Below, in pieces: positions 5,407 through 25,840 of a DNA stretch of 27,553 bases. This stretch comes from a virus. The notes below the pieces were generated by a model, which did no database searches, was not told the DNA's origin, and saw nothing but the letters and a program-made list of their open reading frames with translations. The stretch covers positions 1 to 27,553 of IMG/VR virus record IMGVR_UViG_3300006332_000204; one strand, 5' to 3'. Position 1 is the first letter of the stretch, and each line of letters begins with the position of its first letter. Position numbers and translations under genes: made by a program.

Positions 5407-7574
5407 TGCCGACCTACCGCCTTGAAAAAACAAACTTTCAAGCTGGCGAACTGGACCCGAACTTTCATTCGCGTTCCGATCTGAAGCTGTATGACGAGGG
5501 CGCAAAACAGGTTCAAAACTTCTACCTGATGCTGACCGGGGGCGTTATGCGCCGTCCCGGCACGACCTATCTTGCCAACCTTGGCGCAGCATCACGTATC
5601 GAGCCGTTTCTGTTTTCCGGCGATGAGCGTCATATCGTGGCGTTTCAGGCGAGCGGAGCGAAGATCTACGGCATTGACGGCACCTTGCAGGCAACCCTGA
5701 CCGGTGCGCCGTGGGGTGCGGACGACCTGTTCGAGCTCAACATTACCCAGGCCGGTGATGTAATGATTGTTGCGCATCGCGACTATCAGCCGACCCAGAT
5801 CACCCGCACCGGGGCAACCAGCTTTACACGCGCAGACTATGCCTTCGAGGGCGACAGCAGTACGACCCACAAGCGCCCGTTCTTCAAATATGCCGACGCC
5901 GCTGTAACCCTGACCCCTTCAGGTACGAGCGGCTCGATTACGCTGACGGCAAGCGCAGACACCTGGGAAACATCGCATAACGGGACAATTCTCGAATACA
6001 CAGACACCGCCGGGACCGTGCGGCAAATGGAGCTGGGCACCCGCGTTTCGGCTACCGTCATAAATGCCACGGTCCTGTATTCCGCAACATTGCCCAACAC
6101 CACAGCGGTCAAGACATGGCGTGAGCAAATGTATTCGGCTGTTCGCGGCTGGCCGGGTGCGGTTGAATTCCACGACAACCGACTATGGTTTGGCGGTAAC
6201 AGCCAGCGTCCCGGTGGCCTTGTCGGCTCGCAGTCCGGCGCTTTTTACAACTTCGAGCTCGATGATGGTGACGATGATGAGGGTATCGACATCACGATTG
6301 CCGGCTCGAGCGTCAACGAAATCCGCCATCTTGTCTCCACACGGCGGCTTGAGATCCTGACCGACACGGGCGAGTTCTACATTTCAGACAGTGATGTGCG
6401 GGCGATTACGCCGGGCAATGTTTCCGTGCGTCGCCAGACAACCTTTGGATCGAGCCGCACGCCGCCAGTGTTTTTTGATGGGCAAACGGTGTTTGTGCAG
6501 CGTTCCGGGCAAAACTTGCGTGCCTATGCCTACGACTTTGTGCGCGACACCTATGCTTCTGACCTGTTGAGCGTAAAGGCGTCCCATTTGGTGCTGTCAC
6601 CTCGTCAGATTGCCAGCACTTTCGGCTCTGACACACGCCCTGAACAATACCTGTTGTTTGTAAACAGCAACGGCACGCTGACCTACATGCACTCAATCCG
6701 CGAGCAGGAGGTCCAGGGCTTTGCCCAGTGGTCAACGCGCACGAACGACACGTTTGAAAGCGCGTGCGGGGTTGCAGAGGATGTGTTTGTCGTTGCCAAA
6801 CGCACGTTGAACAGCTCGACGGTGTACGCGCTCGAGCTTCTTGCCGACGATGATTCCGTTACGCTTGATTGCTCGCTTGCAGGCACACGTTCGCAGTACG
6901 GCACGCCGCTTGTCGATGGGGCAAGCCAGAGCGGCACAACGCTTAACATTGATGGGCTGACATCGACGCCGTCTGCGGGCGACCAGTTCACGATTGCGGG
7001 CGTAACCGGCACCTACACTATCGACCGCCTGACCTATACCAGTGGTGATGCAGCACTTGTGTTGACCAGTGCGCTTGCCAGCTCGCCCGCGGACAATGCG
7101 GTGATTACCTTTACCACCGGGCATCTGTACACGGGGTTCAGCCATTTGGCGAACGAGACCGTGCATGTGGTTTCCGGCAATCTGTATCTCGGAACGGAGA
7201 CTGTTTCAGGCTCGGGCACCATAACAATCGACTATACCGGGCTGAGTGCGGTTCGAGCCGGGTTTACCTACACACCGACGTTGGAAACCATGCCGGTCGT
7301 GTTCCAGAGCCAGCGTGGCAACCTTAATGGCGTTGTGCGTCGCGTGACGCGCTGTCTTGTCGATATTACGGGTGCGTATGACATCAAGGTCGAGGGCAAC
7401 CAGCTGGCTGTTCGACAGGTCAATGACGATATGAGCCTGCCGTTGCAGGCACAGGCCGGTCATTACGAGTTTCCGGTTATGGGATATTCGCGCGAGCCCA
7501 CGATCACCTTGACCCAGACAGACCCATTGCCCCTGCGCGTTCTGGGCATGGGCGTAGAAGTGAGGTCTTACTGA
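5406..7574 (+). CDS. Tail tubular protein B (nozzle)
   Basis: This 722-residue protein is the homologue of T7 gp12 (794 residues), which forms the hexameric tail nozzle. It begins LEKTNFQAGELDPNFHSRSD and then has a stretch with VQNFYLMLTGGVMRRPGT, the typical start of the family. FHDNRLWFGG (about residues 257-266), a second diagnostic motif, lies in the propeller region, followed by SGAFYNFE. The second half is beta-rich with many repeats of T, S and G. It starts at the A of the preceding stop codon and overlaps the next gene by one base. Confidence 0.92.
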   Translation: MPTYRLEKTNFQAGELDPNFHSRSDLKLYDEGAKQVQNFYLMLTGGVMRRPGTTYLANLGAASRIEPFLFSGDERHIVAFQASGAKIYGIDGTLQATLTGAPWGADDLFELNITQAGDVMIVAHRDYQPTQITRTGATSFTRADYAFEGDSSTTHKRPFFKYADAAVTLTPSGTSGSITLTASADTWETSHNGTILEYTDTAGTVRQMELGTRVSATVINATVLYSATLPNTTAVKTWREQMYSAVRGWPGAVEFHDNRLWFGGNSQRPGGLVGSQSGAFYNFELDDGDDDEGIDITIAGSSVNEIRHLVSTRRLEILTDTGEFYISDSDVRAITPGNVSVRRQTTFGSSRTPPVFFDGQTVFVQRSGQNLRAYAYDFVRDTYASDLLSVKASHLVLSPRQIASTFGSDTRPEQYLLFVNSNGTLTYMHSIREQEVQGFAQWSTRTNDTFESACGVAEDVFVVAKRTLNSSTVYALELLADDDSVTLDCSLAGTRSQYGTPLVDGASQSGTTLNIDGLTSTPSAGDQFTIAGVTGTYTIDRLTYTSGDAALVLTSALASSPADNAVITFTTGHLYTGFSHLANETVHVVSGNLYLGTETVSGSGTITIDYTGLSAVRAGFTYTPTLETMPVVFQSQRGNLNGVVRRVTRCLVDITGAYDIKVEGNQLAVRQVNDDMSLPLQAQAGHYEFPVMGYSREPTITLTQTDPLPLRVLGMGVEVRSY

Positions 7575-11372: not shown

Positions 11373-14300
11373 TGGCTTCAGAAACCTTAACTGAAGCCGA
11401 GCTTGCCCAGTTTAATCCTGCTTTAGAGCCTCCAACAGAGCCTGAGTCTGCTCAATTTAATCCTTTGCTGCAGCCAAGCGGGTACACGTCATCGGCAACG
11501 CCCAAGCGCCCCGGTTTTGAGCCGTCATTTGAGGACACACGCACAGGCCCGGCAGCGTTCAGGCGTGCGTTCCAGCAGGAAAATCTTATTTCACTGCTGG
11601 CTGGAGGTGCGGAAGACAATCGCCTTGCTGACTTGTATGCCATTACCGAGGCTGCAGGCAGGAAGATAGATCCCGGCTACAACGTAGAAGAGGACCCCCG
11701 GCTTCAAAATCTAGAGCCGGGAGAAATTGCGTTTTTCATACACAGCAACTCTTTTGACCACACCACTGCAATGCTCGCAGAGCGGCGTGCGCAGGATCGT
11801 TTGGACAGGCAGGACCGTCAGGACTCCGGTGCAATTATAGCCGGTACAGTTGCGGGCGCTGTTCTAGACCCCTCCCTGCTATTGCTGCCGACAGTGCGTG
11901 GTGCCACCAGGCTGCAATCGGTGCGCAATATGTCGGCTTTGCTGGGAACTGAAGAAGCCGTAAAGCAGGCGTTGGATGGCACGCGCCCGGATTCGTATCT
12001 TGCTTATGCTCTGGGTGCGGGGACCATTGTTGGCTTGTTGAGCAAGGCGCGCCAGCCGCTACGTACAATTACAGACCAGGAAGTACAGGAGATTGAGTCT
12101 CGCGCTGTTGCGCGATTACTCGACGATGAGCAGCAAGTTACCGGGGCTCGCATAGAAGCGGCACAGGCGCGTCGCGCTGGAAGCGTCGGCGCACGCGAAA
12201 CGCCTACCGGACAGGTTATTTCTGATGTTGATGACATTCGGGCAAACCGCCCGGCACCGGCACCCGGTGGCCTCGAGCGGCTAAACATGAACCCGATCAT
12301 GGTTTTGCTAAACGAGCAGAACCCAAAACTTGCGGCAATCACGCAGCGTGTTGTGTTGGGGGCCTTGGAGATCCCGTTTTACTTGCGCGGAAATATGCAA
12401 AAGACCGCACTTGCAACGCCAGGCGAGAACGCGGAAGGCTTGCTACGCGCAGGGCGCGGTGCCGTGGTTGAGACAACGCAAGTGATCCGCACTAACTACA
12501 ACGCCTACGTACAGTCTGTAACAGGAAAACAACCGGGACGGTTCAGCGTAGCTTTTGGCAGGCGTCCTGCTGACGGAGTTTTGACTTATCGCGAGTTTGG
12601 CCGGGAAATCAGCCGTGCCCTGCTCGATGAGGGCAGGCACGCAATTCCCCAGGTTGCAGCAGCTGCGCAGCGCACACGGCGTTTTTACGATGACATTTGG
12701 GAAAACGGGCAGAAATCTGGTGTCTGGGAGGGCGTCGCTATCAGTGAGCTGCGTGCGATCGATGAAGCCATATCGCGCCTTGCTGCAATTACTAAAAGAG
12801 GCCGCAAGCTCAGCCCTGAGCAAACCAAGCGAATGGCAGGACTGCGCAACAGTAAGGCGCAAAAGGAAGCGCAGCTCGAGCGCATCCGTACTGGCAACGC
12901 AGGCGGTAAACGTAAAAATTACCTGAATGTTGTCTATCGTCGGGACTACTGGCGACAAAACAAGGAACGCCTGATTGGCGTGATTATGCGCGAAGGTGGC
13001 CATGAGCGTCAGGTTGCCGAGGAAATCTTTGACCAGATAACCCGTAGCGTTCCGTATCGCGGCAATCCGTTTATGCGGGTTGCCCAGCAACGCACGCTGA
13101 ACATTGATCCTGTCAAGTTTATGGACGACGCCGCTGGCGATGCGATTGAGACAGATATTTTTACGCTGATGCGGATGTACCAGCGTTCAACAGACGCTGA
13201 CATCGGCCTTTACAAGAACTTTGGCTCGCTCGACCTGGCTGACGAGATACAGGCTGTTCGAGACGTTTTCAAAACCATGCCTGTAAACGCGGCAAACCAG
13301 CGCAAGATGGAGGCGATGATCCAGCGTATCGAAGCGGTACGCGATCTTGTTCGTGGCACGTATGGCCTGCCTGCAGATCCCGCAAACGTGACATCTCGCG
13401 CAATACGTATGTCGAAGAACTATGCGGCATTGACCCTGCTGACAGGCCCGCTTGCAGCAGCCCCTGATGTTGCACGTTCAATGATGGTCAACGGCATAAG
13501 CAATACGTTCCGCTCAGCACTTGAACCTCTCTTCAATAACGTTGGCCAGTTCAAGGCCAGCAAACGAACCCTGAACGCTGTTGGCGAAGCAGCTGACATG
13601 ATCCTGGCGTCACAAGCGGCGCGCGTGACAGACCTTGGCGATTATGTGGGCGTGTTTACCGGCTTCGAGCGCAAGCTCGAGCGCGGCACAAACTTCTATT
13701 TCAATTACATCAATGGAATGAATTTGTGGACGGACACCATGAAGACCTTGAATGGCATGGTGAGTCAGACGCAGTTGCTGCGTGGCATCGAGGAGATAGC
13801 CACAAAGGGCAAAACAAGTAAGAAAATAACAGCGCGGCTTGCCAAGCTGGGCATCGATGCGCCGATGGCCAATCGCATTCATGCGCAAAACGCCAGCTGG
13901 GAGCGCACCAAGCACAACATTATCGCGCACACGGATGAATGGTCCGATGATGTCGCACGTGAAACATTTGAACGTGCAATAGGCACTGACGCCCGGTTCA
14001 CAATTATTACGCCGGGGCTCGGTGATGCGCCGCTGTTTGCAACGGACATTCGGGCAATCAAGGGAATGCCGGATTGGGTATCGCCTGAAATCGGTAGCCT
14101 GTTATTCCAGTTCAAGAAGTTTGGCCTGAGTGCCCACCAGAAGGTGTTGCTGGCAGGCTTGCAGGGCGAGAAACGTGATGCGGTTATGGGTATGGTCGCA
14201 ATGGTCGGGCTTGGCGCAGTGGTTGATTATGTGCGCTCAACACAGACGAATGCGCCGGGATACAACACCCGCAACTTTACGCAGAAGCTGTACGGCGCTG

Positions 14301-17584: not shown

Positions 17585-18529
17585 ATGGCACTTGCAACAG
17601 TAGATAAGGACAGTTTTCTCGCTCTTATCGAGAAGCACGGTGTGCATGGCACCGCGAAAAAACTCGGCATAAATGTGCGATCTGTGTACTCGCGGCGTGC
17701 GCGGATCGAGGCCGAGCTGGGCTTTCCCATTATGCGGCAGCAGAAAGTCGCAGGGCATGAAGATCGTATAAGCGAACGACTGGCGACATCGTTGGCAAAC
17801 GGCACGATCGTAGTTGGCAGCGATGCGCATTACTGGCCAGGAAAACCCACGACTGCACACCGCGCTTTCGTCAAACTGATAAAGACTCTCAAGCCATCAA
17901 TCATTGTCTATAACGGCGACATTCTCGACGGGGCTTCTATCTCACGACATCCGCGCATTGGCTGGGAGGAACGTCCGTCTCTCGTGGATGAGCTCGAGGC
18001 TTGCAAGGATCGTTTGCAGGAGGTGCGCGAAGCGGCACCAAAACAAACGCAACTCTGTCACACAATCGGAAACCACGATCTGCGCTTTAATTCGCGTCTT
18101 GCCAACGTCGTGCCCGAGTTTGCGCAAGTACACGGCACGCGCCTCGAAGATCACTTCCCGCACTGGGAAACGTGTTGGTCCGTTTGGGTCAACAACGACA
18201 TCGTGATCAAGCACCGCTTCAAGGGGGGCGTACACGCGACTCATACAAACGCGATGACGGCAGGCAAAACTATGGTGACGGGCCATCTGCACTCGCTGAA
18301 GGTAACGCCCTACAGCGACTACACGGGCATTCGTTGGGGTGTTGATACCGGAACGCTTGCGGATCCCTACGGCCCGCAATTCTCGTATTACACGGAGGAT
18401 GGGCCTGTTAACTGGCGTTCGGGTTTTGTGGTCTTGACGCTCAAGGACAGTGAGCTGTTGTGGCCTGAAACCGTCTCGGTCTTGCGCGACGGCGTTGTTT
18501 GCTTTCGCGGCGAGCTGATCGATGTATAG
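17585..18529 (+). CDS. Metallophosphoesterase with N-terminal HTH
   Basis: This 314-residue protein has two parts. Residues 8-45 look like a small DNA-binding helix-turn-helix (GTAKKLGINVRSVYSRRARI). Residues 73-290 carry the calcineurin-like metallophosphoesterase motifs: D80-x-H82, GD (111-112), GNHD (162-165) and GHLH (233-236), with further histidines at 210, 217 and 220, enough for a two-metal centre. Known members hydrolyse phosphodiesters or phosphomonoesters; the substrate here is unknown. The gene abuts the endolysin stop and overlaps the next gene by 8 bases, so it belongs to the late transcript although it is not an obvious virion protein. Confidence 0.82.
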   Translation: MALATVDKDSFLALIEKHGVHGTAKKLGINVRSVYSRRARIEAELGFPIMRQQKVAGHEDRISERLATSLANGTIVVGSDAHYWPGKPTTAHRAFVKLIKTLKPSIIVYNGDILDGASISRHPRIGWEERPSLVDELEACKDRLQEVREAAPKQTQLCHTIGNHDLRFNSRLANVVPEFAQVHGTRLEDHFPHWETCWSVWVNNDIVIKHRFKGGVHATHTNAMTAGKTMVTGHLHSLKVTPYSDYTGIRWGVDTGTLADPYGPQFSYYTEDGPVNWRSGFVVLTLKDSELLWPETVSVLRDGVVCFRGELIDV

Positions 18530-18794
18530 GGACGAGGCGCTTGAGAGGGCCGCGGAGCTGGTCACGAAACAACGTGAGACACAGCACGGGCCTGCCGCGC
18601 GGAACGCAGAAATAATAGCTTTGCTCTGGTCGGCCTACACCGGACAAAAAATAAGAGAGCACGACGTATGGGCCATGCTCTCTTTAATGAAGGTGGGACG
18701 TATCGTTTCGGGTGACGCAAAGAACGACGACCACTGGGTAGATGCTATCGGCTACCTGGCTCTTGGCGTCGAGCAATGCACGGAAACAGACTAG
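18522..18794 (+). CDS. DUF6378 protein
   Basis: This 90-residue helical protein carries the DUF6378 pattern: HGPAARNAEIIALLWSAYTG, then DVWAMLSLMKVGRI, then DDHWVDAIGYLALGVEQ. The family is frequent in phages of Gram-negative bacteria and resembles all-alpha MazG-like folds, but no activity is established. It starts inside the end of the metallophosphoesterase gene and is the last gene of the coupled late operon. Its stop touches an apparent remnant on the other strand. Confidence 0.8.
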   Translation: MYRDEALERAAELVTKQRETQHGPAARNAEIIALLWSAYTGQKIREHDVWAMLSLMKVGRIVSGDAKNDDHWVDAIGYLALGVEQCTETD

Positions 18795-18870: not shown

Positions 18871-19377
18871 ATGAAAGCTGTGACCGTCGCCATTATCGCT
18901 ATCGGACTTTGCTTTGCTGCTATTTGCTTTGCTGCTATCTGGTGGAGTCCTTGTTTCCTCTGCCCAGACCAGCTCTCGAAGGTTGATGGCGTTAGGGTTT
19001 TGGTCCGTGCGGATGTGAGGGACGGCTGTCTTAACAACCCAGATGCGCTAAAAACCGAAGCTGAGTTGGCACTGCGTCGATCTGGGATCAAGTTTGTGGA
19101 TTACGACGCTAGCCATAGTTTGCATATGAACGTGATGGGCTATGAGACAACTGATGGCTGCGTAGCTACTATTGCTATGAGGGTTTACAGATACGAATGG
19201 CTGGCCGACCTCACTTTTGGATCTGTCGTAGCGTGGTATAAGCTGAGTATACTTTCAGGTCCGAAGGCTAGCTTTGCGCAGCAGCTTAGTGAGAGAGTTG
19301 ACGAGATGGTTACCGCGCTCGGCAACGAAAAAGAAATTCCTAACTGGGTGCCATTTTCGATTAGCAGAACTGGCTAG
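18871..19377 (+). CDS. Membrane-anchored protein of unknown function (moron candidate)
   Basis: This 168-residue protein has an N-terminal hydrophobic segment (about residues 3-25), most likely an uncleaved anchor or signal, followed by a soluble domain containing CFLCP and DGC motifs, four cysteines outside the helix, and a mixed alpha/beta sequence. The hydrophobic segment holds a short tandem duplication (FAAICFAAIW, 18909-18940). The gene stands alone at the end of the late region with its own probable promoter and is not coupled to the upstream operon. This is typical of lysogenic-conversion or exclusion genes. The domain loosely suggests a LptE- or DUF4136-like periplasmic lipoprotein fold, but I cannot confirm that. 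Confidence 0.55.
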   Translation: MKAVTVAIIAIGLCFAAICFAAIWWSPCFLCPDQLSKVDGVRVLVRADVRDGCLNNPDALKTEAELALRRSGIKFVDYDASHSLHMNVMGYETTDGCVATIAMRVYRYEWLADLTFGSVVAWYKLSILSGPKASFAQQLSERVDEMVTALGNEKEIPNWVPFSISRTG

Positions 19378-19466: not shown

Positions 19467-19715
19467 TCATTCCGGTAGTTCAATCCATGCATCGCCAAAC
19501 TCGACCTCTGCCTTGATCACGGCGTCGGCTTTCGCGCGTTCGACAGTCTCTTCATCGAACTTTGCGGCCAGCTCTTCAGCGTAATCTATTGCCCACTTCG
19601 CGTCCTCTTCCTTGCCTTCGGGCGCTGTTATTGCCAGAGCCAGGCACATCACCAACGTTTCGTATTCATTTTTAGGTTCTGCCCCGTACTCAAGTATTTT
19701 GCTTTTGGTGTTCAT
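19467..19715 (-). CDS. Small acidic protein of unknown function
   Basis: An 82-residue, strongly acidic, alpha-helical protein (MNTKSKILEYG at the start). GGAGG at 19722-19726 places the start at 19715 (6-base spacing) or at the adjacent ATG 19718. No domain is recognised. Its last residues, GDAWIELPE, match GNASIELPY in the small gene at 24068-24271, and the DNA agrees at 21 of 24 bases (19473-19496 versus 24137-24160). It is last in the DUF932 operon. Confidence 0.6.
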   Translation of the reverse strand: MNTKSKILEYGAEPKNEYETLVMCLALAITAPEGKEEDAKWAIDYAEELAAKFDEETVERAKADAVIKAEVEFGDAWIELPE

Positions 19716-19761
19716 CATTGGCCTCCGTTTTCGCGTGGCACCCAATGAATTATGTAGATCA

Positions 19762-20295
19762 TCAGTGCTGTTGCAAAGACGTTGGTGTTTGATTTGCTTG
19801 AATCGCAGTCCACACAGCTCCGTAATTCAACTTAAAATTTTCGTCTGTTGCGAGCAATTCGTTAGCGCGTTTGCAAGCGTGCAGAGCGGTTGTGTGATCC
19901 CGGTAGTTAATTGCAAGTGCAACTTCCAGGGCCGTGTAAAGCAATCGTTTATGGGCAATATGACAAAAGGCAAAACGCGGCGTTGCTATTTCTGGTTTGC
20001 GGCTATCACTGTACAGCTGATCGATTGTTACACACCATTGCACGGCAACAGCGGTTCTTAACCCGTCGAGCAAGTTTTTCGATTTACGTAACTCCGCAGG
20101 AATCTTGGGGGCAGAACCTAAAATCGATAGAGGAACGTTAGTTTTGTTTTGCGCCTGCAAAGCAAATTCAAGGCGTTGTCTTTCTTTAGCAATTTTATTG
20201 GCTAACTTTTCGCCACGGTTTATGGCGTCCGAGAGAAGATCGATTGTTTCTCTCAGACGCCGTATTTCCACAGCCAGGTTGCTTGGGTCATTCAT
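19762..20295 (-). CDS. Stand-alone DnaA domain IV-like DNA-binding protein
   Basis: This 177-residue protein has two parts. Residues 1-50 form a probable coiled coil. Residues 80-165 align with domain IV of the replication initiator DnaA, the part that binds DnaA boxes: a first helix with TIDQLYSDSRKPEI, then ATPRFAFCHIAHKRL, then the signature RDHTTALHA (132-140) and a closing helix. The residues known to contact the major groove (D-H-T-T-x-x-H) are kept. The AAA+ ATPase domain is absent, so it cannot initiate replication as DnaA does. It may bind DnaA boxes of host or phage as a competitor, anchor or repressor. The gene begins 2 bases after the DUF932 stop. Confidence 0.8.
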   Translation of the reverse strand: MNDPSNLAVEIRRLRETIDLLSDAINRGEKLANKIAKERQRLEFALQAQNKTNVPLSILGSAPKIPAELRKSKNLLDGLRTAVAVQWCVTIDQLYSDSRKPEIATPRFAFCHIAHKRLLYTALEVALAINYRDHTTALHACKRANELLATDENFKLNYGAVWTAIQANQTPTSLQQH

Positions 20296-20297
20296 AA

Positions 20298-21170
20298 TTA
20301 CGCTGCCTCTGCCTCAATGACCGGCTCGTACTTGCGCCACGCAGTCGAGCTCTCGAGCAACGACACGACATTCTGTCGATCGATCGAGGTGCGAACATTG
20401 GGCTGCTCGTAATGCGTTGCCCAGCTGGTCAACACATCATCGAGGGTAGACAGGAACGGGCCTTCAGGCGTCTGCACAAATTCCTGGTAGATGTGGTCGC
20501 GCACTGACTTGCTGACCTTCATGTTTCTGAGAAGATTGTAAGCTTGGTCGGCTTCGAGGTGGATGTTGTGCCAGTAAACGCGGCGCTCCATCTCTCCCTC
20601 GTAGTCAACAATGGCACCAAGCAGTGTGTCGATGATCTCGGGGATGCGTTCGCCAATGTTGGTCGTGTGTCTTGCGCGGATGTGCGAGTACTCGCCACCG
20701 CTGTAAGGAATGATCGCCTGGTTAGCGCAGACAAACTTGTACAGACCGCCACGGATCGTGAACGCGCAGGACCCGTCGTAGCTGTCAAACATGATGACGC
20801 GCAGGGAGATTGCCCTGTCGCCTTCGAGGCGCGTGTAGGCAGGCAGGATTGCCTGATAAAACAGCCGACCGCCGTTGGGGGTTATGTCCATCGTTACTTG
20901 CATGTCGGTCGTGTCGACGTTGTTCGAGCGCATTGCTTCCTGCACAGCTGCGACAGATTCCTCGTAAGGTACAAGCGCATAGCGCGAGGAGTGGATCTCG
21001 ATAGTCTGGTCGGTATCCCGGTTGAACACGCGCTGCCAGTAACGGCCATCGCTATCGTTGCGGAAGATGTTCTCGCAACCGACCTCGAAGAACTGTGGTT
21101 CGTGATGGTTGGCAGGCACAAAGCCGTGCTGAGCGATTTTTTCGGCGTAGGGAAGATTGTCAAAAGGCAT
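20298..21170 (-). CDS. DUF932 phage/plasmid-like protein
   Basis: This 290-residue protein belongs to the DUF932 (phage/plasmid-like TIGR03299 type) family: VFNRDTDQTIEIHSSRYALV and VPYEESVAAV near residues 45-70, ISLRVIMFDSYDGSCAFTIR in the middle, followed by GGLYKFVCANQAI. Its function is unknown; relatives occur widely on phages and plasmids. The ATG at 21170 is chosen over a longer frame because AAGGAG lies 6 bases upstream and the longer frame would run into the tRNA-like att site. It heads a three-gene minus-strand operon with the DnaA-like protein. Confidence 0.8.
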   Translation of the reverse strand: MPFDNLPYAEKIAQHGFVPANHHEPQFFEVGCENIFRNDSDGRYWQRVFNRDTDQTIEIHSSRYALVPYEESVAAVQEAMRSNNVDTTDMQVTMDITPNGGRLFYQAILPAYTRLEGDRAISLRVIMFDSYDGSCAFTIRGGLYKFVCANQAIIPYSGGEYSHIRARHTTNIGERIPEIIDTLLGAIVDYEGEMERRVYWHNIHLEADQAYNLLRNMKVSKSVRDHIYQEFVQTPEGPFLSTLDDVLTSWATHYEQPNVRTSIDRQNVVSLLESSTAWRKYEPVIEAEAA

Positions 21171-21201
21171 TCGAGACTCCTTGGTTGGGGCATAACGAGA
21201 A

Positions 21202-21218
21202 CGCATAGCTGCTATGCG
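21202..21218. promoter_or_regulatory. Palindrome upstream of the DUF932 operon
   Basis: CGCATAG (21202-21208) and CTATGCG (21212-21218) are perfect 7-bp arms around CTG, 32 bases before the DUF932 start. It may be an operator or a leader hairpin. The surrounding 21171-21356 is noncoding, and I see no convincing -35/-10 pair in it. Confidence 0.4.
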
Positions 21219-21356
21219 CGCTAGTGTGCCGGATTTTGTGCGGAAACTTGTGCAGGATACGCAGCAACGTTCTCCGTATGCCCCCAAATTTCCTGCAAAA
21301 ACGCAGTTCTTGGAACGTGCCAAAACGAAAATACGTAATGATTTGAGGGAGTTGGT

Positions 21357-21405
21357 TGGCGCGCCCGGGAAGATTCGAACTCCCAACCTCCTGATCCGTA
21401 GTCAG
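21357..21405 (-). other. attP core: 3' part of a tRNA-Arg(ACG) gene
   Basis: Read on the minus strand, this is a tRNA 3' portion. It holds the anticodon loop CTACGGA (anticodon ACG) with both stem arms, the variable region, a T-arm with the GTTCGAATC core and the 3' acceptor strand CGGGCGC followed by G and CCA. The outermost anticodon-stem pair is already mismatched, and no D-arm or 5' acceptor strand exists upstream, so the host-identical part ends at about tRNA position 28. It lies 4 bases beyond the integrase stop. This is the classic phage copy of a tRNA attachment site that restores the tRNA on integration. Confidence 0.88.
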
Positions 21406-21409
21406 TGTA

Positions 21410-22540
21410 TTATCCCTTTCTTTTCCGTTTCTTTTCAGATGGTTGCATAGTCTGCGTCGGATTAGTGTGACGGATAATGTGCGAAATCGCCTCTGTGCGC
21501 TCACGTTTTCGCTCGGGCGTTGTGTGCGTATATTTCTGTGTTGTGGCGACTGATGTGTGCCCCAGCTGCTCTTTTGCATCGATCAGGTCGAAGCCTTGCT
21601 CGAGCAGCCAGGTTGCACAGGTATGCCGCAGATCATGAAAGGTGCAGTGTTCAAGTCCGGCGCGTTTTCTGGCGTTGTTAAATGCTGTTTTGTAGTCTTT
21701 GAACGGTCGGTACTGCCGCGTTACAGGATCTCGATACAAAAACAGGTGGCGATACTCGTTTGTGCGTGTCCGGTTCCTTGCACACAAGTCGAGCAGATAG
21801 GCACGCAGGCTTTGTCCAATTCCAATTTTAAGTTCCCTGCCCCCGGGCTGTTCGCTTTTTACATACACCGTGATCTCGTCTCTCTCGAAATCAATCTGGT
21901 CTTCTGTAAGTGACAACAGGTTGCCTTTTCGCAGCCCTGTCTGCACAGCAACAATCACGATCGGAACCAGATGCTCGGGCAGTTCAGCAATCAGTCTGTT
22001 GTATTCAGCTTCTGTATAGAAATTCGTGCGTACCGCGACACCCGGATAGAGATGATCTTTCCAAGTATCTTTTGTAACTGCGCCGACGCGAAAGCCCTGC
22101 GCTCGCGTGTAGTTGATGGCGTGACGCAAGACGCGCAGATAAGCGTTAACCGTGCCAGGCGTTATCTCGTCATTAACCACACGACGTTTTAACGAGAGTA
22201 CGAGTTGATTGAGATTTGCCTTCTCAAGCTGGTGCATGTGGGTCAGCTTCAAGCGGGTGGCGATAGCCTGCATTGCGCTCAGCTGCTGTATCGGCGTCTT
22301 GTATGATTTCTTGAAAGCATAATGATCGGTAACAAGCGCGCTGAAGGCAGCATCGATTGTTATTGCCGGAACTTCGCCCAGCAATTCTGTCTGCCGCCAA
22401 TCAGCCTGCAGCCTTATGGCGTAGCGTTCTGCTTCTTGCTTGTCAGATGTACGACAGCTTCCGCGAAGCTCTTTTGAGGAGCCTGGCGGCGTCCAACGCC
22501 ACCACCAGTAAGGTGATCTGTCACGTTTGTAGAGGTGCAA
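21410..22540 (-). CDS. int: Tyrosine recombinase integrase
   Basis: This 376-residue integrase has an N-terminal arm-binding region (YKRDRSPYWWWRWTPPGSSK), a SAM-like core-binding domain (about residues 60-155) and a catalytic domain with R204 (TGLRKGN), H302-x-x-R305 (HDLRH), H328 (LGH) and the nucleophile Y337 (QKYTH). It should recombine attP at 21357-21405 with a host tRNA-Arg. The start is TTG at 22540 with GGAGGG about 8 bases upstream. It lies inside the end of the excisionase reading frame, overlapping it by 127 bases. The rare start may keep expression low. Its own 3' end abuts attP. Confidence 0.93.
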   Translation of the reverse strand: MHLYKRDRSPYWWWRWTPPGSSKELRGSCRTSDKQEAERYAIRLQADWRQTELLGEVPAITIDAAFSALVTDHYAFKKSYKTPIQQLSAMQAIATRLKLTHMHQLEKANLNQLVLSLKRRVVNDEITPGTVNAYLRVLRHAINYTRAQGFRVGAVTKDTWKDHLYPGVAVRTNFYTEAEYNRLIAELPEHLVPIVIVAVQTGLRKGNLLSLTEDQIDFERDEITVYVKSEQPGGRELKIGIGQSLRAYLLDLCARNRTRTNEYRHLFLYRDPVTRQYRPFKDYKTAFNNARKRAGLEHCTFHDLRHTCATWLLEQGFDLIDAKEQLGHTSVATTQKYTHTTPERKRERTEAISHIIRHTNPTQTMQPSEKKRKRKG

Positions 22541-22725
22541 AGGCGAGCCCTCCCTTTTACGAAGTTCTCGATCTGCTCGGCAGTAAAGCGCATTATTCGA
22601 TGCTTGTCTGTGCCGAGGTTGACAAAGGCTAAATCACCTTTGTCGACCCAGCCGCGTACAGTCTCGTTGGTCACATCGAAGTGGTCAGCGACCTCGTTCA
22701 TCGTGATCAGCTGCGTCAATCCCAT
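22414..22725 (-). CDS. xis: Excisionase-like HTH protein
   Basis: This 103-residue protein has a MerR-like/HTH_17 DNA-binding domain at residues 5-58: ITMNEVADHFDVTNETVRGW, then a wing (HRIMRFTAEQIENFV). This is typical of excisionases, which bend DNA and direct the integrase toward excision. It starts within the end of ssb and immediately precedes int. From about residue 62 the frame overlaps int by 127 bases, so its last 42 residues are translated from DNA that also encodes the integrase N-terminus. That tail has no recognisable fold and may be a by-product of stop-codon loss. Confidence 0.75.
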   Translation of the reverse strand: MGLTQLITMNEVADHFDVTNETVRGWVDKGDLAFVNLGTDKHRIMRFTAEQIENFVKGRARLCTSTNVTDHLTGGGVGRRQAPQKSFAEAVVHLTSKKQNATP

Positions 22726-23132
22726 GAGACCGCCTCAGCAGGAGCAGTTGCAACGTCAGCGCCGTTCTGTGGAGCAGCTGCGCGAGCGGCAGGCTTTGGC
22801 ATTGTCTTGAAGGTGCCCCATGTGTCGACCTCGATGCTGACACCGGTCTTATCGACACCGTTCTTGTCCTGGTACTTGTCCACCTTCAGGCGGCCCTGCG
22901 CATAGGCAATGTCGCCTTTCGAGATGTCGCGCTTGCCAAGCAGCTCAACGAGGCCAGCTGCCCAGATGTTGACCTTGTGCCAGGTCGTATCTTCCGAGTA
23001 GCTGCCGTCCTGTTGCTTGCGACGTAGGTTGGTGGCAACGGACGCGACTGCAAAGGTCTTGCCGTTGCTGGTGGATTTGAACTCGATGTCGGATCCGAGG
23101 CGTCCACAAATTGTAATCTGGTTGATATCCAT
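22716..23132 (-). CDS. ssb: Single-stranded DNA-binding protein
   Basis: This 138-residue SSB has an OB fold over residues 3-110: INQITICGRLGSDIEFK, SVATNLRRK, WHKVNIWAAG and YAQGRLKVDKYQDKNG are the expected family segments. The start at 23132 follows AAGGAG with a 9-base spacing; a longer frame to 23183 lacks such support. The C-terminal tail is short and ends AEAVSWD. It lacks the acidic DDDIPF-type tip that cellular SSBs use to recruit repair and replication proteins. It protects single strands during phage replication or recombination, next to the annealing protein and exonuclease. Confidence 0.92.
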   Translation of the reverse strand: MDINQITICGRLGSDIEFKSTSNGKTFAVASVATNLRRKQQDGSYSEDTTWHKVNIWAAGLVELLGKRDISKGDIAYAQGRLKVDKYQDKNGVDKTGVSIEVDTWGTFKTMPKPAARAAAPQNGADVATAPAEAVSWD

Positions 23133-23145
23133 TAGAAGAGACTCC

Positions 23146-23856
23146 TTAAGCTGCTTCGATGAGAGAAGGGGTGATGTAGTCAATGAGACGAAGCGCAGCT
23201 GCTTTCAGAACAGCGTGCGTTTTCATCAGGGGAATGTAATCAGCCTGCAGCGATATGAACTCTGCGCTGCTGGCCTTGCGATCGAGCAAGTCGAAAGCCT
23301 GTCGGGCGAAATCGACAAAGACCTTGCGCTGCTCTTCAGGTGCAGACTTGACGGCTTCGAACTCATCGCCGCCGATTTCCTCAATGCACCGTGTAAGTGC
23401 GTTTGCGCTTGGTTTATTGGCAGGCTTGACGGCCTTGAGGTTTTCCATCTGCTCGATCTTGGCGACCTTGCCCTTGTGGATCTCAAGCTCGTTGAGAGAT
23501 GCGTACTCGGAACCCGCTAACCCAAGGCAGGCAAGCGCACGACCAATGGCGCTGGTCTCGCAGTTTTCCAAAGCACTGCCTTTGTTGACCATGCCGGTGC
23601 CGCGGACTTCTTCGGCAAGACCGCTGGCAATAACATTGTTGAGCTTGTCGGTAATGACAGCGCGAACGCGGACATATTTGTCGTCGGCATATTCGATGGA
23701 GGTTTCGATGCCGTAGTCGAGAGCGTAGTTCTCGCGGAACAGTGCGACGCGATGCTTAACCTCGAGGTACTTCTTGCCGCCGCGTTGCGCGACGCCGAAC
23801 TTCTCGACCATCTTCTCAGCGCGAGACATAACGTCTGCGTGATTAACCTCACTCAT
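23146..23856 (-). CDS. Probable single-strand annealing protein (Erf/Rad52-like)
   Basis: This 236-residue protein carries the central motif NKGSALENCETSAIGRALAC (about residues 91-110) followed by LGLAG, known from a family of phage proteins placed among single-strand annealing recombinases. An N-terminal alpha/beta region (residues 1-90) precedes it, and a helical, charged C-terminal region follows. The genetic setting, SSB directly downstream and a YqaJ-type exonuclease upstream in the same operon, is that of a lambda Red-like recombination module. The exact family cannot be fixed by eye. GAGGAG lies just before the ATG at 23856. Confidence 0.55.
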   Translation of the reverse strand: MSEVNHADVMSRAEKMVEKFGVAQRGGKKYLEVKHRVALFRENYALDYGIETSIEYADDKYVRVRAVITDKLNNVIASGLAEEVRGTGMVNKGSALENCETSAIGRALACLGLAGSEYASLNELEIHKGKVAKIEQMENLKAVKPANKPSANALTRCIEEIGGDEFEAVKSAPEEQRKVFVDFARQAFDLLDRKASSAEFISLQADYIPLMKTHAVLKAAALRLIDYITPSLIEAA

Positions 23857-25811: not shown

Positions 25812-25840
25812 ATTATAGCATATTGACTGCAGTAATGCAG
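25812..25840 (-). promoter_or_regulatory. Leftward early promoter
   Basis: On the minus strand an extended -10, TGCTATAAT (perfect TATAAT at 25817-25812), lies about 15-20 bases before the ribosome site of the first gene. The -35 region is weak (CTGCAT at 25840-25835) and lies inside the operator at 25827-25840. A bound repressor would therefore block it directly. Confidence 0.7.
25827..25840. promoter_or_regulatory. Operator-like palindrome, copy B
   Basis: CTGCAGTAATGCAG, near-perfect two-fold symmetry and the same half-site (CTGCA/TGCAG) as the other copies. It covers the -35 region of the leftward early promoter. Confidence 0.7.

Follow-up and report, generated by a model that had tools for sequence, protein, structure and literature searches.

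What becomes of the genes beside a phage attachment site when the phage integrates into a host tRNA gene? The question is raised by a virus record of 27,553 bases (G+C 55%), here called the window, meaning the whole stretch of DNA that was analysed, in which half of a tRNA-Arg gene lies upstream of genes for a DUF932 protein and a DnaA-like protein. A first-pass annotation had proposed that integration places these genes behind the host tRNA-Arg promoter. Under such an arrangement, genes for prophage replication would have been tied to the growth of the host, a link that is not common to the closest relatives. The coupling of tRNA to DUF932 is seen in the window only; what the relatives have in common is an attachment site inside the replication operon, which is split by integration.

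Taken as a whole, the window is best explained as the attachment region of a temperate podovirus with T7-type virion genes and with marine alphaproteobacteria as hosts, in which attP would split an operon and read-through from the tRNA would be a by-product; this explanation is considered probable.

The attachment site and its gene neighbourhood

The plus strand of the window encodes podovirus-type head-tail adaptor, major head, tail, internal virion and lysis proteins, and the minus strand is the early region. Read in its own direction, the minus strand begins with a RecE-like/YqaJ nuclease and further genes, followed by a single-strand binding protein (ssb, 22716..23183; PF00436, E=1.8e-20), an excisionase-type HTH protein whose gene overlaps int (22414..22725; HTH_17 at 27.2 bits with a cutoff of 27; TIGR01764 excise at E=5.5e-5, below cutoff) and a tyrosine integrase of 376 aa (21410..22540). 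The 3' half of a tRNA-Arg(ACG) gene comes next (21357..21405) and then, after 186 noncoding bases (21171..21356), a DUF932 protein of 290 aa (20298..21170; PF06067, E=3.8e-18), a DnaA domain IV-type DNA-binding protein of 177 aa (19762..20295) and a small acidic protein (19467..19745). Excisionase, integrase and attP would thereby form a cassette that separates ssb from the DUF932/DnaA-domain-IV pair within the early replication operon.

The integrase has the Phage_integrase domain expected of a temperate phage that integrates into tRNA genes (PF00589, E=5.8e-29; phrog_1, E=1.7e-48). Residues R204, H302, R305, H328 and Y337 are invariant in the integrase alignment (A1) and are presumably the catalytic residues. 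In the 'phages' set all integrase matches are below 60% identity, the DnaA domain matched two unannotated records, and the DUF932 gene and a 168-aa plus-strand gene convergent with the operon (18871..19377) matched no annotated phage. The DUF932 gene starts at ATG 21170, with AAGGAG before it; a longer frame from TTG 21386 was rejected, ATG 21170 being the start in all relatives whose start is present. For the small acidic gene, which the Pfam search assigned to no family, the better and likely start is ATG 19718, behind GGAGG. Directly after dnaA, the integrase-less relatives described below have a gene matching window positions 18522-18794, and because of this arrangement the acidic gene and the 18871-19377 gene look like additions in the lineage of the window's phage.

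The first-pass description of a DnaA-like gene in the operon holds for the DNA-binding part but not for the rest of the protein. Residues 81-143 match Bac_DnaA_C (PF08299, E=7.3e-11), a match to 1j1v was obtained at E=9.7e-7, and the RDHTT..LHAC motif is kept. A DnaA initiator has an AAA+ ATPase as well as domain IV; in this protein domain IV alone was matched and the AAA+ domain is absent. The protein may therefore bind DNA in the manner of DnaA, but is not an initiator ATPase. The exact DnaA box TTATNCACA does not occur within the window, and the four TTATCCACA sites with one mismatch in the window all lie outside the P' arm.

The attP core, which runs from the anticodon stem-loop to the CCA of tRNA-Arg(ACG), shares all of its 49 bases (4 + 45) with the tRNA-Arg(ACG) gene of an alphaproteobacterial metagenome-assembled genome (MAG), locus L088. 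It is noncoding, sits between the int stop and DUF932, and its CCA ends at 21357; no complete tRNA was found in the window. The first-pass annotation had correctly read the tRNA copy as lying on the minus strand with its CCA side toward DUF932, and 186 noncoding bases as separating the two. Crossover in the anticodon loop would join the host promoter and 5' half to the phage 3' half and so rebuild the tRNA. An attL assembled in silico from the core and the host tRNA was called a complete tRNA-Arg(acg) by ARAGORN, followed after 186 bases by DUF932 in the same direction, as had also been proposed. Judged by its sequence, the attachment site in the window is real. The half carried here is the 3' half and not the 5' half, which would supply a promoter and which occurs, by sequence, in the two relatives L016 and L017.

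Sequences resembling integrase arm sites flank the core on both sides. A 20-base motif, CGCACANNATCCGNCACACT, has two exact copies in the window, one on each side of the core (0.12 expected at three mismatches or fewer), and both are recognisable in L016 and L017. The copy on the P' side (CGCACAAAATCCGGCACACT, 21223..21242, minus strand) lies within the 186 noncoding bases, which form both the P' arm and the leader of DUF932 and are conserved in L016, L017 and the relic L105 of the bacterium SP218; the copy on the P side (CGCACATTATCCGTCACACT, 21464..21483, minus strand) lies inside the 3' end of int. Both are putative integrase arm sites. A palindrome (GCATAGCAGCTATGC, 21203..21217, minus strand) just 5' of the DUF932 ribosome-binding site is the same in L017 and has one change in L016.

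The P' arm also contains, at 21171-21290, a long imperfect inverted repeat (GGGGCATA..GAGAACG / CGTTCTC..TATGCCCC), and the whole 189-base segment that holds it folds better than 200 shuffles (z -3.2). As a conserved structure it was set aside, the outer stem being broken, as judged by eye, at several pairs in L016 and L017. The repeat could represent integrase sites or a structure of the mRNA leader.

Apart from this locus, a 45-base match of 91% to the tRNA-Arg half of the window was seen in Corynebacterium phage Poushou (MF197383.2, 27158-27202) and in four related records. None of the five has an annotation there; the match is possibly an unmarked attP.

Transcription across the attachment site

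The DUF932-DnaA_C pair would, in the lysogen, be the first prophage genes behind tRNA-Arg, in the direction of the tRNA. Whether transcription could continue from one to the other depends on the 186 bases between them. No strong terminator lies there: the best candidate in the first 120 bases after the CCA is a weak terminator-like hairpin (GCACGTTCCAAGAACTGC then GTTTTTGC; 21303..21320, minus strand) of -3.9 kcal/mol, equalled or bettered by 116 of 200 shuffles. The same rule was applied to 73 host tRNA-Arg genes (from 78 full ones among 91 loci, five having fewer than 120 bases downstream), and 48 of the 73 are likewise without an intrinsic terminator, so the absence of one in the phage says little. 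No promoter-like site with at least 9 of 12 consensus positions is present on the DUF932 strand within the 186 bases. One 9/12 site at the end of int, with its last base at 21409, is directed towards the core; by eye, it is not kept in L016 or L017. Read-through from tRNA-Arg into DUF932 is possible, because the 186-base segment is without a terminator better than chance. At a low level it would be physically permitted, and it would follow from the tRNA half that the window's phage happens to carry.

Integration would at the same time cut the DUF932-DnaA_C pair off from ssb, recE and all upstream genes, with the integrase at the other end of the prophage. The latter follows from the geometry, as the first-pass annotation had said, and no integrase stands beside the tRNA-Arg gene of SP218. 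The same annotation had the operon severed from an early promoter at 25817. Separation from the upstream genes is borne out by the geometry, but the promoter is not established: eight 9-of-12 consensus matches occur, against a chance expectation of 5.0 +/- 2.3, and the site at 25817 is one of them.

Relatives with and without the integrase

Two viral contigs share this integrase lineage, namely L016 (3300006790_001760; integrase 83% and DUF932 94% identical to those of the window) and L017 (3300006919_011356; integrase 67%), the latter ending before DUF932; among ten relatives searched, PF00589 was found in these two only. At the position of the tRNA-Arg half of the window, and on the opposite strand, L016 has the 5' half of tRNA-Lys(CTT) (attP 7099-7343) and L017 the 5' half of tRNA-Lys(TTT) (attP 7129-7356). 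Both halves match SP218 exactly, and attL sequences assembled in silico with SP218 sequence were called tRNA-Lys(ctt) and tRNA-Lys(ttt) by ARAGORN. Between the tRNA-Lys half and DUF932 (in L017, beyond the contig end) both contigs have TTGATCTCCAAAAGG(C/T)CAAGGTTTATATGGT, a promoter-like sequence (TTGATC, 17 bases, TATATG) that points away from DUF932. In these phages the rebuilt tRNA-Lys would be expressed from a putative phage-carried promoter. Because the tRNA-Lys half is in the opposite orientation, the rebuilt tRNA should be unable to read into DUF932 in two of the three integrase-bearing members.

Unexpectedly, one and the same integrase lineage appears to use opposite tRNA halves, in one case with a promoter that the phage carries and in the other with that of the host. 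Literature searches, narrow in scope, returned no report of a lineage switching between 5'-half and 3'-half rebuilding, and priority is not claimed. All three cores are centred on the anticodon loop, and those of the window and L016 have the form CTGA-N7-TCAG, with flanks that are alike read either way; from this symmetry we infer that related integrases may use either tRNA half. Over short evolutionary distances, then, tRNA transcription can turn from pointing into a prophage end to pointing away from it, or the reverse, and a comparison of Arg-type with Lys-type members could show whether prophage genes are affected by tRNA read-through.

A different arrangement is found in nine further viral contigs, which have genes for DUF932 and its neighbours but not for this integrase. 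PF00589 was absent from all eight that were searched (all except L147), although viral records are fragments and these relatives could have an integrase elsewhere. Their DUF932 proteins are 67-70% identical to that of the window. The ssb gene stands directly before DUF932 in seven of the nine, 28 bases apart where read, and the remaining two contigs (L006, L008) break off inside DUF932, so that the order is visible in seven of seven where it could be seen; several of these contigs come from similar samples and look near-identical, so that the independent cases are probably fewer than seven. By this comparison, DUF932-DnaA_C appears to be part of the ssb/recE replication operon, into which the xis-int-attP cassette would have been inserted, or from which it would have been lost. 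Given the place of ssb directly before DUF932 in these relatives, the pair in a lysogen of the window's phage would be disconnected from the operon to which it belongs. In lytic replication, it is proposed, DUF932-DnaA_C acts alongside ssb and recE, and the pair is disconnected by integration and reconnected by excision.

Because the related phages carry the other half of a tRNA, that of tRNA-Lys, in the opposite direction, tRNA-driven expression of the pair looks like a by-product and not an evolved switch. The claim of the first-pass annotation, that control of the operon in the lysogen passes by design to the growth-regulated tRNA-Arg promoter and a DnaA-like factor is thereby kept in step with host growth, is regarded as quite improbable, although the geometry is correct, the 186 bases hold neither a strong terminator nor a promoter-like site of their own for DUF932, and a host hairpin of the kind that follows tRNA-Arg at L088 would be moved to the other end of the prophage. 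As a designed feature, however, it is not supported by L016 and L017, two of the three known integrase-bearing members, in which the coupling is absent and the tRNA-Lys reads away from DUF932 under a promoter that the phage itself would supply. Against the claim speak also the integrase-less relatives, in which the pair simply follows ssb, the presence of DnaA domain IV only, and the absence of the exact DnaA box from the window.

The by-product reading has also to be set beside one in which the tRNA side is irrelevant, and attP has been kept in the operon because lysogeny is stabilised when integration cuts the link between the replication genes and the early promoter. In all three integrase-bearing contigs attP comes immediately after int, whichever the tRNA or its orientation, DUF932 follows attP in both contigs that extend far enough, and a change of gene connection upon integration is a known principle, as in integration-dependent immunity (PMC9262239, in the part available). 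An attP beside int is ordinary, however, and its position may reflect only the point at which the cassette came to lie; the window yielded no identifiable repressor, and the contigs are very few. Such silencing is regarded as doubtful. A claim combining both sides, with attP as a transcription switch, is unlikely: integration would always cut DUF932/DnaA_C from the early operon, the integrase lineage would have moved between a tRNA-Lys 5' half with promoter, reading away, and a tRNA-Arg 3' half, reading into the prophage, and the pair would come under the host tRNA in the window's phage alone.

Published systems, as far as the available portions of the reports describe them, share parts of this arrangement. 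In the Islander set (PMC4383910), 3760 islands have a 3' tRNA fragment and 159 a 5' fragment, and 2083 are anticodon-centred. Like its tyrosine-integrase elements, the window has a tyrosine integrase, a half-tRNA attP core and a predicted anticodon-loop crossover, and it is of the 3'-fragment type, whereas the rare 5'-fragment type seems to be that of L016 and L017, so that one phage group with related integrases would show both. Archaeal pTN3-like integrases use the 5' half of the tRNA, and the rebuilt tRNA is expressed from the promoter of the element, which is seldom the case in bacteria, according to the available text (PMC8371274). The rebuilt tRNA of L016 and L017 would similarly use an element-carried promoter; in contrast to the pTN3-like case, this promoter, located between the core and DUF932, does not belong to the integrase gene and resembles one now found before the tRNA-Lys(TTT) gene of SP218.

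The possibility that islands profit from growth-regulated tRNA promoters has already been suggested (PMC2951348, seen in part), and in the same source 736 of 1273 tRNA-integrase pairs have the order tRNA then integrase in the same direction. As in the KplE1 type described there, the first prophage gene in the window would lie in the tRNA direction behind an attL with arm sites; unlike in that type, and in the STI order of tRNA then int, the gene behind the tRNA is DUF932 and the integrase goes to the other end. Integration-dependent immunity in mycobacteriophages (PMC9262239) is alike in that integration at a tRNA attB changes the expression of a gene at attP. In those phages attP falls within the repressor gene and the repressor itself is changed, whereas the core of the window is noncoding, between the int stop and DUF932, and would split two genes from an operon. 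The T7-like marine cyanophages (PMC8776855), which can integrate during lytic infection, resemble the window in being podoviruses with an integrase followed by a tRNA-copying attP, but all attP reported in the accessible part of that study copy tRNA-Leu, and that part mentions no DUF932/DnaA_C pair. The tRNA-dependent lysogeny of Fionnbharth (PMC10865867), as given in the portion at hand, shares with L017 the integration at tRNA-Lys-TTT and a phage-borne source of the tRNA; in Fionnbharth this is a whole separate tRNA gene, whereas L017 would restore the host gene by supplying a 5' half and a promoter.

Probable prophage traces beside host tRNA genes

An exact-pattern scan of genome contigs for the tRNA-Arg half, with two ambiguous bases allowed, gave 91 stretches, most of them titled Alphaproteobacteria, and 78 have a full tRNA-Arg by pattern. 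In one of them (L105, PBMH01000038.1, Alphaproteobacteria bacterium SP218, a MAG), an intact tRNA-Arg gene is followed at once by about 170 bases resembling the P' arm of the window. This sequence aligns with nearly the whole P' arm of the window, and blastn gives 75% over 83 bases (E=1.3e-6); the SP218 arm stops where the DUF932 ribosome-binding site would begin. A host gene, taken to encode a DUF924 protein, comes next, and no integrase is present there. At the syntenic locus L088 the tRNA-Arg is followed by a native hairpin of -13.7 kcal/mol and the DUF924 gene, without the arm; between the two loci the DUF924 gene is 77% identical and a neighbouring lipoprotein-like gene 81%.

L105 is likely a prophage relic, with a DUF932-side arm beside an intact tRNA-Arg; host assignment and junction rest on one assembly, a MAG contig. 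That the arm is instead host DNA flanking tRNA-Arg, captured by the phage together with the tRNA half, would agree with its shortness and with the host gene directly after it, but is thought highly unlikely, as the same arm with its arm-type repeats is joined to tRNA-Lys cores in L016 and L017 and is missing from L088. A model of the P' arm (R1) moreover matched five of 289 class genomes at E<=0.01, SP218 and four weak ones, and ARAGORN found no tRNA in the 3-kb loci of the four; the R1 score for SP218 is circular, L105 being in the model, and blastn is the independent evidence. Within the order of SP218 the arm was found in one of 24 genomes.

No intact prophage was recovered. Searches through DUF932 gave 112 pattern matches in genome contigs, none of them confirmed, and nothing in the 24 genomes of SP218's order, and the integrase was found at E<=1e-40 in none of 385 class genomes; none of these searches had a positive control. 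The gene order that the first-pass annotation had expected in integrated relatives, tRNA-Arg followed by DUF932 and the DnaA-like gene, is matched as far as the tRNA-Arg and P' arm of the likely SP218 relic.

SP218 also bears on the Lys-type phages. The 55 bases preceding its tRNA-Lys(TTT) gene match the promoter flank of L017 at 48 positions, counted from the alignment. In seven of seven other genomes a PPIase-like gene, presumably that of a peptidyl-prolyl isomerase, lies 86-182 bases before tRNA-Lys(TTT), against 1,744 bases in SP218. The insert of 1.74 kb between the two genes (L139, G001:C2, 12189-14005) contains at 13272-13718 a homolog of the 18871-19377 gene of the window (41.6% identity, E=6.6e-34), oriented as it should be after a deletion of DUF932-DnaA_C; the surroundings of the insert gave no orphan tRNA-Lys 5' half. 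The insert resembles what would be left of a Lys-type prophage whose promoter has come to precede the host tRNA-Lys(TTT); the alternative is that SP218's own tRNA-Lys promoter was captured by the phages. Read as a relic, the insert suggests that a host tRNA gene can retain a promoter of phage origin left by a prophage.

Among the stretches with the tRNA-Arg half, two (L025, L029) lie about 16 kb apart on one contig of Fodinicurvata fenggangensis (NZ_JMLV01000006.1). One of these copies of the 3' half is preceded by sequence unlike that of other tRNA-Arg genes, and ARAGORN still calls a weak tRNA there; the contig looks like one with an integrated element at the same tRNA-Arg.
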